From: Bacteroidota bacterium | GTDB taxonomy: Bacteria > Bacteroidota > Bacteroidia > AKYH767-A > OLB10 | Direction: 5' to 3' | NCBI GenBank assembly: GCA_963169675.1 | Contig: CAUJFJ010000110.1 | Coordinates: 1-32,679 of the forward strand | DNA length: 32,679 bases | Part shown: positions 280 through 10,133 of the stretch, in pieces | How the letters are laid out: the number at the start of each line of letters is the position of its first letter | Position numbering within the stretch: the first letter of the stretch is position 1 | Position numbers and translations under genes: made by a program | The notes under the pieces: model-generated | What the model saw: the letters and a program-made list of their open reading frames with translations, nothing else | Databases searched by the model: none | Told to the model about the DNA's origin: nothing

Positions 280-1182
280 CTAATAAAGCACCACTTGAAA
301 TTGCACAATCTGCTCTTTCACCGGATCATTAAACTTCCGGTTATTGATATAGTTCCTCTTATCCACTAAAAACTGCACCCTATTTATCCCACCAAAATAA
401 AAATGCTGAAACATACCGGAACCAATGGTGAATGCACTAACAAAATGACTGATATAAATATGATATCCAATAAATCCTAAGGATGCTGCCTGAAGCGTTA
501 AATTCATAATGCCTTCTCCTGTATATCCCGCATAAATATGGCCACTTCCAGGTAAAAATGTAGCCCACTTAATTGCTTTGTCTTTATCCTTGAGCTTGGG
601 ATAATTCAATTCATTATAAGTTGTATTTACAATAAGTAATAAGGAATCTTTTATCGCAGCGGGTGCATCCGACCACACCACCATTTTTTGAGCAATTGTT
701 TTTGCTTCATTCCATTTCCGTTGTTCATTTAAAACCAATACATGCAGAAAAAGTGTTTCCCTGTAAAGCATGCTATCCTTAGCAAAAAAGGACATCTGTA
801 ACAATTCCGAATGTGCCTGATTAAAATCGCGGTCGAGGTAAGAAACCAATGCAGCCTGAAAACGCGAAACCACCATTAGTGAATCACTAATTTCGCTATA
901 TGGAACTCGTGCAATAGTTCTAAATGCACCTACATAATCACCGGTTTGTTTTAAGCATTCCGCTTTGCCAAGTAAAGCATGTGTTCGTTCCACTGCATTA
1001 CCACCAGAGTAAATCCGGCGCTCATATTCCAATGCAGCATCCTGCCACTCCCCTTTTGCAAAAAGAGAATCGGCATTTCGGCTGAACTGTGCACTCGTTT
1101 GTCCCGGATTAACGAAAAATCCGGCGCAAAGGAATATGCAAATCCACCATGATGTTGTTATCGATGCGTTGGTAAAATTCAT
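280..1182 (-). CDS. Exported helical-repeat protein with C-terminal PGxGxxYxG membrane module
   Basis: This 300-residue protein has an N-terminal signal sequence (hydrophobic stretch about 11-24, likely cleavage after TSAQ near 32). A helical region (about 35-195) follows, with spacing suggesting tetratricopeptide-like repeats such as GEWQDAALEYERRI. The C-terminal module starts at the PGSGHIYAGYTGEG motif (211-224) and contains hydrophobic segments, resembling TM2/DUF5683-type membrane modules. The next upstream gene has the same architecture, so the two are probably paralogues. It is the last gene of a four-gene overlapping operon, and its first 74 nt overlap the preceding gene in another frame. 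The signal peptide requires this start. An envelope role is inferred from context only; the reaction or partner is unknown. Confidence 0.75.
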   Translation of the reverse strand: MNFTNASITTSWWICIFLCAGFFVNPGQTSAQFSRNADSLFAKGEWQDAALEYERRIYSGGNAVERTHALLGKAECLKQTGDYVGAFRTIARVPYSEISDSLMVVSRFQAALVSYLDRDFNQAHSELLQMSFFAKDSMLYRETLFLHVLVLNEQRKWNEAKTIAQKMVVWSDAPAAIKDSLLLIVNTTYNELNYPKLKDKDKAIKWATFLPGSGHIYAGYTGEGIMNLTLQAASLGFIGYHIYISHFVSAFTIGSGMFQHFYFGGINRVQFLVDKRNYINNRKFNDPVKEQIVQFQVVLY

Positions 1183-2020
1183 TTCTGTTTACATGAACTG
1201 AAAGGGCACTGCCCCAAATATTTCCTACATAGAATAAAGAGAATAAGGTCCCGAATATGATAAACCCGGCACTTTCCGGCCCCGACCGGAAATAATACTC
1301 AGCTGTGGCACCTCCCAGAGCTGCAATTTCGAGAAATGCAGCCAGTCCCTGACCTAACTTTCCTGAATATACCTTCCCCGCTCCAGGAATTATTGCCGAA
1401 AGAACTCCTGCAACAACTGCTGAACGTTTCGGATAATTGCGAATGGTATCGGCATATAACTTCAGACTCTTTTGCTCTTCAACGATAGCATAAAAACTAT
1501 AATCAAACGAGTTAGCCAAACTATCGAATGTCGGTAAATCTTTTTCAAGCAAAGCGAGTGCTGCAAGATTTAAATTGGTGAGCGATTGATATTCTTTGTT
1601 TTGATAGGCCAATAACCGGCTGCGACATTCTTCATACTGCTTTGCATAAATTCTGTTCAACACGCCATAAAAAAATGAAGGATCATAAAATCCGGATGAT
1701 GCCGAAATGCGATCAAAATAAAATATGGCACTGTCACTGTTCCGTATCTGGTGCAAATTCCACGCTGTAAAAAAATTAACAGTATCGGTGCGACCTGCAC
1801 TGAAAGCTGTTCCGGTCATGGTCAATCGCTTCAATGCAAGCAAAGCATCCCGGTTTTCACCTCTGTTATTTAAGTAAGTAATAAAATTCAACTCCTGTTG
1901 AATGGAATCTACCGGTAAAATAGTTTCAATAGTATCAACAGATGTTATTGGTGCTATGGAATCCTGCTGAGCAGAAAGCAACAAGGGGAAAAACAAAAAA
2001 TATAGCAGCAGCAACCTCAC
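1109..2020 (-). CDS. Exported helical-repeat protein with PGAGKVYSG membrane module (paralogue of downstream gene)
   Basis: This 303-residue protein starts with GTG, and its start overlaps the stop of the upstream yidD-like gene by four bases (2017-2020, GTGA), a typical translational coupling arrangement. Residues 1-17 form a signal peptide ending SAQ. A helical, probably TPR-like region covers about 45-190. The PGAGKVYSGKLGQG motif at 212-225 opens a hydrophobic C-terminal module like that of the next gene. The shared pattern is PG[SA]Gx[IV]Y[AS]GxxG[EQ]G. TM2/DUF5683-like membership is likely for the C-terminal half but not certain. Its function is unknown; its neighbours point to envelope assembly or lipoprotein handling. 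Confidence 0.75.
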   Translation of the reverse strand: MRLLLLYFLFFPLLLSAQQDSIAPITSVDTIETILPVDSIQQELNFITYLNNRGENRDALLALKRLTMTGTAFSAGRTDTVNFFTAWNLHQIRNSDSAIFYFDRISASSGFYDPSFFYGVLNRIYAKQYEECRSRLLAYQNKEYQSLTNLNLAALALLEKDLPTFDSLANSFDYSFYAIVEEQKSLKLYADTIRNYPKRSAVVAGVLSAIIPGAGKVYSGKLGQGLAAFLEIAALGGATAEYYFRSGPESAGFIIFGTLFSLFYVGNIWGSALSVHVNRNEFYQRIDNNIMVDLHIPLRRIFR

Positions 2021-2484
2021 CGATGAATATGATATTTGGAAGGTGTGTCAAACATTCTGAAATTCACATCGTAATCGCCGGGACGGGCATCAATCATGGC
2101 CACACGATTGCATTTCATAATTCTGTCAGCCGACAATGCCACGCCTTTTAATAAACCGAAGCGGGAAATAGATTGCTTACTGAAATTGGAACAACTCAAC
2201 TGGAAACGGCATTCAGCAGAAATTTGCGGACTTAATGCTGCCTGATAAAAATACATCATGGAACCGAAAAATAAAGTCACGGGATTGTACTTAACTAACG
2301 GACTTTTACTTTTGGAAGTAAGAAAATGTATCTCCCTTTTTTTGTATTGCGCTTCTTCAAATTTTTGCGCTCCTATTAATCCCAGATCACCGGAACTCAA
2401 TTGCGCCTGCAGAGTTTCAGAAATGAATAAGAAACCAAGTATTCCAATAAACAAAATAAATTTACTGTTGTAAGCTTCGCGCAT
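2017..2484 (-). CDS. yidD: YidD-like protein (membrane insertion efficiency factor domain) with N-terminal signal sequence
   Basis: Residues about 70-130 carry the YidD signature: an FYQAALSP segment (79-86), CRFQLSCS with Cys92 and Cys98, and Cys125 in the IMKCNR position equivalent to the LLRCHP motif of the family. Classical YidD is a small (about 85-residue) cytoplasmic peripheral protein that helps YidC/Sec insertion. This one is 155 residues, with a hydrophobic N-terminal segment (9-22) ending AQA-like near residue 28 and a 40-residue linker. The domain may therefore face the periplasm. The usual GGYDPVP tail is replaced by a PGDYDVNF stretch. It overlaps its upstream neighbour by 23 nt and its downstream neighbour by 4 nt. 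Domain identity is confident; cellular location is inference. Confidence 0.8.
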   Translation of the reverse strand: MREAYNSKFILFIGILGFLFISETLQAQLSSGDLGLIGAQKFEEAQYKKREIHFLTSKSKSPLVKYNPVTLFFGSMMYFYQAALSPQISAECRFQLSCSNFSKQSISRFGLLKGVALSADRIMKCNRVAMIDARPGDYDVNFRMFDTPSKYHIHR

Positions 2485-3193
2485 TGGAAGGGATTTTAAA
2501 ATTCAACTGAGAATCTTCAACAGCTTCATTGGTTTTAATATTGGAGTAACCTTTTTTCTCAATAGTGGAATCAATTGGTGAAGTAAACCGAAATTCAGTA
2601 ACGGATTGCGGAAAACTGAGATCTTTTACTTTGGTATAATTACTGTAATAAACTTTAAGCAAAGGTTCATTTTTAGAATCAAAATATGCCATGTAAACCG
2701 GCAGGTAATTTTCGTGTACCAACTCTGCTTTGCCCATAGTGCCAACGAGCACCGAAGGTGGCAACCAGGTTGTTATAACCATTCCATTTTCAAAACGGGT
2801 ATCGCTAATACTGAATCCGGCTGATTTTAATCCCATATCGCCGGCATGACCATTTAAGATAAAATACATAAAACTCGATTGCGATGATATGCCACTGTTT
2901 GGTTTAATCAGGATGGTATTTGCTTTCGGATCGTAGATTTTTAATTCACCCTTTGAATTAATCATCATGTAACTCAAAAAAGGTTTCAGTGTTTTGGTGG
3001 TCATGTGTCCACCATCTTCTGATGTATAATACACCATGGCTTCCGTGGTCACCGACTGCCCTTTTTTCAACGATTTGGAAACAACTTGCATACTCATTCG
3101 CTCAATTTGCTGCTGTGGCAGGAAACTGGTGAGCGATATACTGAAAATTAACAGTATTGAAAGTAAAAGTGGTTTAGGCATCTGATATTTCAT
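2462..3193 (-). CDS. LolA-like outer-membrane lipoprotein carrier protein
   Basis: This 243-residue secreted protein has a hydrophobic signal segment at about 8-24. Its middle and C-terminal strands fit the LolA/LolB-like half-barrel: KIYDPKANTILIKP (about 84-97), then a KVYYSNYTKVKDLSFPQSV stretch, and a closing FKIPSNAR typical of the last strand of this fold. LolA family members shuttle lipoproteins across the periplasm. It is the first gene of the operon, followed by yidD-like (overlap 23 nt) and two paralogous membrane-module proteins. The ATG at 3193 is used, though the Met at codon 5 would also serve. The fold assignment is by pattern only and moderately sure; it could be another LolA-fold periplasmic protein. 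Confidence 0.65.
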   Translation of the reverse strand: MKYQMPKPLLLSILLIFSISLTSFLPQQQIERMSMQVVSKSLKKGQSVTTEAMVYYTSEDGGHMTTKTLKPFLSYMMINSKGELKIYDPKANTILIKPNSGISSQSSFMYFILNGHAGDMGLKSAGFSISDTRFENGMVITTWLPPSVLVGTMGKAELVHENYLPVYMAYFDSKNEPLLKVYYSNYTKVKDLSFPQSVTEFRFTSPIDSTIEKKGYSNIKTNEAVEDSQLNFKIPSNARSLQQ

Positions 3194-3381
3194 ATCTAAA
3201 GTGAGAGAGGCGACAAATTTACAAAATTGATGCCTAAAATGTCATCCGTTACTGTTATTAAACACAATTCCAGCCTTCATTTATTTAAATAACAGGGTAA
3301 TGTTGATAAATGAATCTGATGTTTCTCCTTTATTGGCTCAGAACAGACTTATTTTGCACTATGAAACACATTTTTAAAAAC

Positions 3382-3936
3382 ATGAAAAAATTAGTTCTTA
3401 TTGCTTTTACCCTTTTCACCGGATTCCTTCAATCATATGGTCAGGATGGCACCTTTTCGAAAGGTACCAGTAATATTGGTGTGGGCTTCGGACTCGGAGG
3501 TGCTTATGGACTGAATTCCTTTTCAACTACCACACCTGCCTTCGGAGCGCATTTCGACCATGGCATTGTGGATCTCGATGGTGGTGGTACCATTGGCGTT
3601 GGTGGCTATGTGGGTTACAAAGGATTCGTATATAAAATTGATAAGTACCGCCAAAAATGGAATTACTTCATGGTTGGTGCCCGCGGAACTTTTCACTACG
3701 ATGTATTTGAAGTAGAAGAGCTCGATACTTATGCCGGAATCATGCTGGCCTATTATGTGCTGAACTATTCTGATGATATTCCGAATAATGTTCTCGTCAA
3801 TACCAATTATTCCAGTTCAGCTTATGCTTCCGTATTCGCAGGAGCCAAATATTACTTCACACCTGAAGTTGCCGCCTTCGGTGAAGTTGGATATGGTGTA
3901 TCTTGGCTGACTCTGGGTGCTGCATTTAAATTCTGA
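3382..3936 (+). CDS. Small outer-membrane beta-barrel protein
   Basis: From the ATG at 3382 the product is about 184 residues, with a clean signal peptide MKKLVLIAFTLFTGFLQSYGQ. The open frame extends upstream to ATGs at 3361 and 3310, but those add residues before the signal peptide. The rest is strand-rich and glycine-rich with alternating aromatic residues, ends in AAFKF (terminal Phe), and fits an 8-strand outer-membrane barrel. The function cannot be named. It stands alone and converges on korB, from which it is separated by a perfect palindromic terminator at 3976-4003. Confidence 0.75.
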   Translation: MKKLVLIAFTLFTGFLQSYGQDGTFSKGTSNIGVGFGLGGAYGLNSFSTTTPAFGAHFDHGIVDLDGGGTIGVGGYVGYKGFVYKIDKYRQKWNYFMVGARGTFHYDVFEVEELDTYAGIMLAYYVLNYSDDIPNNVLVNTNYSSSAYASVFAGAKYYFTPEVAAFGEVGYGVSWLTLGAAFKF

Positions 3937-9062: not shown

Positions 9063-10133
9063 ATGCCATCCAAGCAACCAAAAGTTCTGGTTTCCCCTCT
9101 AAACTGGGGATTAGGTCATGCCACCCGCATGATTCCTGTGATCAGGGAATTAGTGAGCATGGGCTGTGAAATTGGTATTGCTGCTGAAGATGGCGGTTAT
9201 GCTATTCTCAAACAGACTTTCCCGAATTTATTGTTTGTCACTTTGCCGGGCATACGAATTTCTTATCCCGAAAAGGGCTCCATGACCATGGCAATTGCCA
9301 GACAATTTCCTTCCATTTTGAAGGCTATTGAAAAGGAACATGAAGCATTACTGCAGGTGATTCAGGAACATGGTTTCACGCATATAATTTCCGATAACCG
9401 CTATGGTTTGCATCATCCTGAAATTCCTGCTGCTATTATCTGTCACCAGATAAATATTCAGGCAGGAAAATCACTACGCTTTATGGAACCTCTCCTGCTG
9501 CGATTACACAAAAATCGCTTGCAAAAATTTGATGAATTGTGGATTCCTGATCTCAAACCACCACACAATCTTTCCGGTAAGCTTTCTGAAATTGCTGAAC
9601 CTGATCTTCCCCACAAACATATCGGCCTTTTATCGAGATTCACATCCTTACCAAAGCCAGCTGAAAAAAAATATCACTTCATAGCACTGCTTTCAGGTGT
9701 CGAGCCACAACGAACCTTGCTTGAAAATAAATTGCAAAACTACTTTCAGAATTGCGGACTACCATCTTTAATCATCCGGGGAAAACCCGAAACAAACACA
9801 ACTCAAACTGTTGCAAACGGCACCACCATTTCCGCAATCAGTGATGAACAACTGCTCACCATTTTACATCCCGAAACATGGGTAATTTGCAGACCCGGTT
9901 ACTCCACGCTGATGGATCTGCTTACATTGCAACATTCGCGAATAGTTACCATTCCTACTCCAGGACAAACCGAACAGGAATACCTGGCAGCACACATATT
10001 TCATATATACGGAATCCGTTATATCCAACAAAGTGAATCATTACCCGATTTTGAATCTATTCCGAATGCGGTTTTTACGGATAAACAAAATCAGGAATTA
10101 CGTCTGATACTTAAAGAATTCCTGAAAAAATAA
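9063..10133 (+). CDS. GT-B fold glycosyltransferase (family 28-like)
   Basis: From the ATG at 9063 the product is 356 residues. The N-terminal half opens with KVLVSPLNWGLGHATRMIPV, whose GLGHATR loop is typical of MurG/GT28-like enzymes. The C-terminal half has a RPGYSTLMDLLTLQHSRIVTIPTP stretch (given in part: RPGYSTLMDLL then PTPGQTEQEYLA) forming the nucleotide-sugar site. No signal peptide is seen, so it is likely cytoplasmic or membrane-peripheral. The sugar and acceptor are unknown. The open frame can be extended 12 codons to a TTG at 9027, but that TTG is the -33 element. It converges on the barrel gene at 10154 with a 20-nt gap and no obvious terminator. Confidence 0.85.
   Translation: MPSKQPKVLVSPLNWGLGHATRMIPVIRELVSMGCEIGIAAEDGGYAILKQTFPNLLFVTLPGIRISYPEKGSMTMAIARQFPSILKAIEKEHEALLQVIQEHGFTHIISDNRYGLHHPEIPAAIICHQINIQAGKSLRFMEPLLLRLHKNRLQKFDELWIPDLKPPHNLSGKLSEIAEPDLPHKHIGLLSRFTSLPKPAEKKYHFIALLSGVEPQRTLLENKLQNYFQNCGLPSLIIRGKPETNTTQTVANGTTISAISDEQLLTILHPETWVICRPGYSTLMDLLTLQHSRIVTIPTPGQTEQEYLAAHIFHIYGIRYIQQSESLPDFESIPNAVFTDKQNQELRLILKEFLKK

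Follow-up and report, generated by a model that had tools for sequence, protein, structure and literature searches.

The stretch of DNA analysed here, referred to as the window, comprises 32,679 nucleotides (nt) of contig CAUJFJ010000110.1 from the Bacteroidota bacterium assembly GCA_963169675.1. Near its left end lies an operon of four genes, named A, B, C and D, which spans positions 3193 to 280 on the minus strand. Genes B-C-D form a widespread core, to which A is added in part of the phylum. A and a group of small secreted hairpin proteins, referred to as T, track together across genomes and are matched by subtype, which suggests that they act as a carrier/client pair. B is a paralogue of YidD and appears, from its N-terminus, to be exported. 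All four open reading frames (ORFs) are called on the minus strand, and successive genes overlap by 23 nt (A/B), 4 nt (B/C) and 74 nt (C/D), as had been stated in a preliminary description of this DNA. That description, made from the sequence alone, is partly supported as an interpretation; it overlooked the ordinary YidD kept alongside B, the fusions of B with C, and the link between A and the secreted hairpin proteins. Neither of the two findings that it had named as counter-evidence was obtained: the order B-C-D extends across the phylum, and the predicted structure of A has a LolA fold. The features of the operon are as follows.

2462..3193, minus strand: gene A, predicted LolA-fold protein with a signal-peptide-like start, 243 amino acids (aa), no lipobox seen (ORF call and AlphaFold2 model)
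2017..2484, minus strand: gene B, YidD paralogue with a signal-peptide-like N-terminus, 155 aa (ORF, Pfam and domain tree)
2098..2262, minus strand: YidD domain within gene B (PF01809 match, 60.2 bits)
1109..2020, minus strand: gene C, 303 aa, GTG start, with a signal-peptide-like N-terminus, predicted TPR-type repeats (residues ~34-198) and a C-terminal helical membrane module carrying PGAGKVYSG
280..1182, minus strand: gene D, paralogue of C, 300 aa, with weak TPR matches, a PGSGHIYAG module and a hydrophobic N-terminus
1109..1182, minus strand: coding overlap of C and D, 74 nt (ORF coordinates)

The gene order B-C-D is kept far beyond close relatives of the source genome. After removal of duplicate records (L034-L038, L118) and of loci with ordinary YidDs (L088, L089, L092, L093, L096, L098, L045 and, by eye only, L048), 47 operons were compared, comprising 26 with ABCD, 18 with BCD, one with BC at a contig end and two with a B-C fusion. 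Neighbouring genes touch or overlap at 21/26 A-B, 35/45 B-C and 40/44 C-D junctions. The C-D overlap exceeds 20 nt in 31 of 32 same-class junctions and lies in the same relative frame in 31/31, the lengths being upper bounds because the longest ORFs were used. The loci were chosen for an exported-type YidD, and the counts therefore describe the surroundings of B and not its frequency. First 15 and then 20 places were fetched, of which 13 and 14 held exported or fused YidDs and the remainder ordinary ones; long-frame YidD matches such as those of genomes G174 and G198 were left out. A scan of contigs with two peptide patterns from B gave 23 named loci, five of them from genomes that had seeded the alignment, and C directly follows B in all 23. 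These loci belong to metagenome-assembled genomes labelled Chitinophaga/Chitinophagales, Flavobacteriales, Cytophagales, Salibacteraceae, Sphingobacteriales or just Bacteroidetes/Bacteroidia, and to one isolate, Arsenicibacter rosenii (Spirosomataceae). In strain SM-1 of this species the operon occupies L116:6298-9136, with T at 9194-9640.

Across the phylum, C was matched at E <=1e-30 in 42 of 395 genomes, a count in which misses are possible, few candidates per genome having been scored. Only two of the 42 (the source genome and G248) belong to the window's class, and the module is thus patchy within that class. Outside the class, the 13 operons fetched comprise ten B-C-D operons without A, two with a divergent A and one fusion. 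By eye, an acyl-CoA-dehydrogenase-like gene stands ahead of B-C-D in nine of ten out-of-class loci (L083-L087, L090, L091, L094, L095, L097), the exception L086 being cut by the contig start, and an ACT-domain-like gene follows B-C-D in nine of ten (not L084).

Gene B had been described as YidD-like, and this is borne out by matches to YidD PF01809 (E 4.6e-16, 58.8 bits against a cut-off of 27; Pfam) and TIGR00278 (58.5 bits, cut-off 40). B shares with this family, the membrane protein insertion efficiency factor, the domain core, the C-x5-C pair and a hydrophobic helix ahead of the pair. Unlike YidD, B has a signal-peptide-like start and ~45 extra residues before the domain, and it sits in an operon with C-D, whereas the ordinary YidD of the genome adjoins an rnpA-like gene (recognised by eye). 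The C-terminal GG-x-G-x-DP motif was not seen in the aligned window B or other exported copies; the ordinary YidDs had partly been picked by this motif. A tree of the domain, built from 80 sequences, separates the 47 exported-type from the 33 ordinary YidDs without exception (local support 1.0), with the caveats that the domain is short and that ordinary YidDs were partly chosen by the C-terminal motif. The C-x5-C pair is present in 47/47 exported-type YidDs. A third cysteine is missing in ten of the 47, all outside the window's class; L039, which failed the pattern, keeps this cysteine and is not among the ten. Lipobox-like stretches occur in B of four loci (L044, L080, L086, L106).

Signal peptides were scored with a simple home-made rule and not with SignalP. 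Of the B proteins, 41/45 pass the rule, and 36/45 carry Q at position +1 of a signal-peptidase-like site, compared with 0/33 ordinary YidDs and 51/269 neighbour ORFs. YidD is reportedly active on the cytoplasmic face together with YidC/Sec. Owing to its signal-peptide-like start, B should not work in the manner of E. coli YidD on that face. Given the simplicity of the rule and the four B proteins that fail it, the first helix of B might instead be an uncleaved anchor, or its YidD domain might be cytoplasmic as in E. coli. This is quite unlikely in view of the Q at +1, which ordinary YidDs lack, and of fusions that place YidD on the side of the TPR domain. PMC8082313 and PMC6822775 cite Yu et al. 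2011 for the role of YidD in membrane protein insertion. No work combining YidD with a signal peptide and Bacteroidetes was found in the literature searched.

The source genome contains three YidD domains, namely the ordinary 73-aa YidD, window B and a 396-aa fusion on contig C173 that joins YidD, behind a signal-peptide-like start, with a region of repeats and a module carrying PGLGYAYSG. Among 61 relatives (own genome counted), an exported-type YidD occurs in 13, all of which also retain a short ordinary YidD (13/13); YidD is present in 10/14 control genomes. B-C fusions were found in two genomes, the source genome (L003:601-1791) and G167 from another class (L082:5599-6801). No strong hydrophobic segment lies between YidD and the TPR repeats in these fusions, and the two parts should therefore lie on the same side. 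Contig C173 also carries a secreted TM2 protein T and, by eye, an NAD-synthetase-like gene. C173 probably adjoins the left end of the window, since in the sister genome G001 T and an NAD-synthetase-like gene lie at least 1.4 kb downstream of the operon; the fusion gene is thus probably a few kb from the window operon. Directly downstream of the YidD-TPR fusion gene is a 175-aa protein without a Pfam match (L003:60-587).

C and D are, as the preliminary description had it, paralogous (hhalign 99.6%) and carriers of the motif PGxGxxYxG. The motif reads PGAGKVYSG in C and PGSGHIYAG in D. The AlphaFold2 model of C (mean pLDDT 89.9) is helical, with TPR-type repeats to about residue 198 followed by further helices, including one of 25 and one of 51 residues after PGxGxxYxG. 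The best VIA rows for C are mostly TPR domains (residues ~31-200, Z up to 14.8, a value that helical repeats reach easily), and Foldseek gave no match to the model at E <=0.001. C is accordingly predicted to consist of TPR-type repeats and a helical membrane module. The helical repeats claimed for both proteins thus hold for C by predicted fold, and for D there are weak sequence matches (TPR_6 E 0.012), with TPR_2 at E 4.8e-10 in one D relative. The signal-peptide rule is passed by 45/47 C and 41/44 D. The C-terminal module had also been likened to TM2/DUF5683, a likeness that comes down to the motif: neither window C nor window D matches PF05154 (TM2) or PF18935 (DUF5683), and a set of 25 C sequences gave no match to either family at E <=0.01. 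Membership in these families was rejected on these grounds. In one D relative (L043:4523-5377) each of the two families is matched at E 0.005, short of the cut-offs, and the true DUF5683 of the genome sits elsewhere, on C103. The literature found on DUF5683 is unrelated, judged by title.

Gene A had been described as LolA-like, which is weak by sequence and clear in the predicted fold. Matches to LolA_like (E 0.035) and DUF4292 (E 0.014) are both under the Pfam cut-off, and window A scores 14.2 bits against the curated LolA/LolA_like cut-off of 30. Within the alignment of A, 9/19 members match LolA_like at E <=0.01 (best 7.9e-6). An AlphaFold2 model from the 19 sequences (mean pLDDT 89.1) resembles P. 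aeruginosa LolA 2w7q (Foldseek E 1.3e-11), P. gingivalis LolB 9tpm (VIA Z 16.4, rmsd 3.1 over 199 residues) and P. gingivalis LolA3 9tp6 (VIA Z 15.9). In a search of solved structures by sequence, none matched the A or B alignment. All 26 A proteins pass the signal-peptide rule, and a lipobox-like stretch was seen in A of one genome (L104). A thus shares with the LolA/LolB/LolA_like fold (PF03548, PF17131, DUF4292) a predicted structure and a signal-peptide-like start, and differs from the LolA family in that the window copy falls under every curated sequence cut-off, has no visible lipobox and is coupled to T and B-C-D. Classical LolA takes over lipoproteins at LolCDE and hands them to LolB.

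The LolA fold of A and the YidD domain of B led the preliminary description to a lipoprotein or general membrane-protein maturation unit. No specific support for this role was obtained, and it is considered improbable: the genome holds a separate LolA (C40, E 1.8e-13) and an ordinary YidD, A is patchy (7/61 relatives) unlike a general lipoprotein pathway, and B appears to be exported. The fold matches of A also include RseB and MucB (Z 8.8 to 9.6), which would fit an envelope-stress sensor in which A acts like RseB/MucB and C-D pass on the signal. This is very unlikely, as no recurring sigma factor, anti-sigma factor or kinase was seen by eye among the neighbours listed, and no cytoplasmic domain is recognised in C or D.

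T genes lie near the operon in 17/25 loci with A and in 0/18 loci without A (flank lengths vary). They are often multi-copy, with up to six copies around one operon (L104), and 32/32 pass the signal-peptide rule. Type-1 T has the TM2 hairpin (12/18 members at E <=0.01, best 4.7e-18), whereas type-2 T has a different hairpin, related to type 1 by profile (95.9%). In five of six type-2 operons (L042, L043, L044, L109 and L120, not L046) type-2 T is directly upstream of A. The multiple copies set T apart from TM2-domain proteins (PF05154), as does a Y-x-L-D-E...F-like motif after the signal peptide in most T near the operon (29/32). A strict form of this motif was rejected as a T signature, being present in 29/32 source T but in 4/12 unlinked T of genomes with A; in controls it occurs in 0/10 generic TM2 proteins and 2/501 background ORFs. 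A shared C-terminal tail was rejected as an A-specific signal because TM2 proteins of genomes without A have the tail too. L109 and L120 each show two operon subtypes arranged back to back within a single genome; each of these operons has a YidD subtype of its own and, in L120, a T subtype of its own as well. At L134:2416-5255 (G453), a type-1 T pair stands beside short fragments that by eye resemble a decayed second B and C; beyond these, the opposite strand carries a further C/D-like pair. In PMC3861447, a TM2-protein gene is reported as a frequent flanking gene of stlA, a salt-tolerance locus from a metagenome.

Whole-genome searches covered the 61 relatives and 31 further genomes chosen from those at hand, with a strong type-1 T match defined as E below 1e-25. 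Among the relatives, strong type-1 T is present in all three whose type-1 operons include A and in no others, and type-2 T in all four that have type-2 operons and in no others. The corresponding comparison (A/T 7/7 vs 0/54) has a Fisher value of 2e-9, which ignores relatedness and seeding. Among the 31 further genomes, strong type-1 T is present in 15/15 with an A-carrying type-1 operon and in no other, and type-2 T is restricted to G460 and G468, which are also the two genomes that have an A-carrying type-2 operon. G460 is telling, as it has a type-1 operon without A and no type-1 T. G457, which has B-C-D and no A beside it, gave only a partial TM2 match (3e-17). None of 18 genomes with B-C-D and no A beside it has a strong T match, A having been judged beside the operon only in 12 of the 18. 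Outside the seeds, T was found in six of eight genomes with A (G058, G453, G456, G461, G464 and G465). T is taken as the client because it is present in several copies, is dispersed in some genomes (G026, G058) and has a hydrophobic hairpin. Alternatively, T might be a partner protein by which A is recruited.

The LolA fold accommodates a variety of hydrophobic ligands. A might accordingly carry a lipid-like molecule in a lipid, pigment or glycolipid handling unit, with T as a membrane partner and not the cargo. The model of A is also similar to several proteins that share the fold without being LolA, for instance DUF1329 (Z 16.2), and Flavobacterium johnsoniae has three LolA and two LolB proteins, with one pair, LolA2/LolB2, in the flexirubin operon (PMC11885536, the main text of which does not mention YidD). 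This alternative is possible but rather unlikely; no recurring lipid or pigment enzyme or transporter was seen by eye among the neighbours listed, many of whose products are unidentified and which were not tested systematically.

The most economical reading, held tentatively and at somewhat under an even chance, combines a periplasm-facing B-C-D module with A and T as carrier and client. Its computed basis comprises domains, signal-peptide-like starts, conservation, the fusions and the A-T coupling. B-C-D would be an inner-membrane module facing the periplasm, in which C and D may serve as periplasmic TPR platforms anchored via their C-terminal helical membrane modules. B would provide a YidD domain moved outside by its signal peptide and placed on the outer leaflet beside C. 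The module would aid the release, insertion or assembly of hairpin proteins at the periplasmic face. A would be a soluble LolA-fold carrier, gained together with T in part of the phylum, that may shield the hydrophobic part of T in transit. The topology, the formation of a complex, the role of T as client and the direction of transport are the parts that we infer. No description of such an operon was found in the literature searched, in line with the novelty proposed at the outset; in the Leptospira genes listed in PMC13066512, YidD and LolA are separate.

Several points weigh against this reading. Seeds for the T profiles had been drawn from most of the T-positive genomes, relatedness is uncorrected, and operon subtypes were assigned by eye from YidD alignments. 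Two genomes with a divergent A, G171 and G194, lack T by profile; each has a secreted two-hairpin gene directly upstream of A (L080:1456-1869, L081:7114-7515) that is type-2-T-like by eye only. Weaker type-1 T profile matches (best 2.7e-19) occur in 11 other relatives, eight without A and three with a type-2 A; the eight of the 11 that were inspected hold generic TM2 proteins, and in several of these the C-terminus has a similar tail. B-C-D is also found where A and T are missing, and T can therefore not be its only client. The hairpins of T and C were rejected as one family (hhalign 0.8%). Window D fails the signal-peptide rule, its N-terminus being hydrophobic all the same. Finally, without the Q criterion the rule also passes 22/33 ordinary YidDs and 110/269 neighbour ORFs, so that the Q criterion alone discriminates.

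The surroundings of the operon were also surveyed. Divergent from A, at 3310-3936, is a small secreted-looking protein with a weak Omptin match (E 0.0037), and this neighbour is kept beside the operon in the sister genome (L034:3219-3794). None of six proteins matched PADLOC defence families and A-D had no match among PHROGs phage families, and a defence or phage identity was rejected. The T of the own genome matches eight PHROGs of unknown function (best 1.3e-9). Scans of the window for TANNTTTG, for sigma-70 promoters and for terminators stayed near chance level. One candidate promoter element lies 5' of A.

3214..3221, minus strand: TAAATTTG, which we take to be a Bacteroidota -7-like box (pattern at chance level in the window; suggestive only)

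Short ATCCTTAA-type tandem repeats, together with two similar stretches, occupy positions 60-275 at the left contig end and likely account for the break in the assembly ahead of C173.

YidD is widespread yet poorly understood. Apparently exported YidDs that form a clean clade, are fixed in an operon and are in some cases fused to their partner offer a handle on the domain's own role. It is doubtful, though conceivable, that the outward YidD and its TPR partners hand T to the LolA-fold carrier for delivery through the periplasm and perhaps to the outer membrane. If true, such a dedicated periplasmic hairpin-protein pathway would amount to a Lol-like route that serves helical membrane segments in place of acyl chains, and it would put YidD to an inverted use. 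That a LolA-fold protein and small secreted hairpin proteins are coupled in matching types suggests that they are carrier and client, a pairing that could be tested in one isolate.

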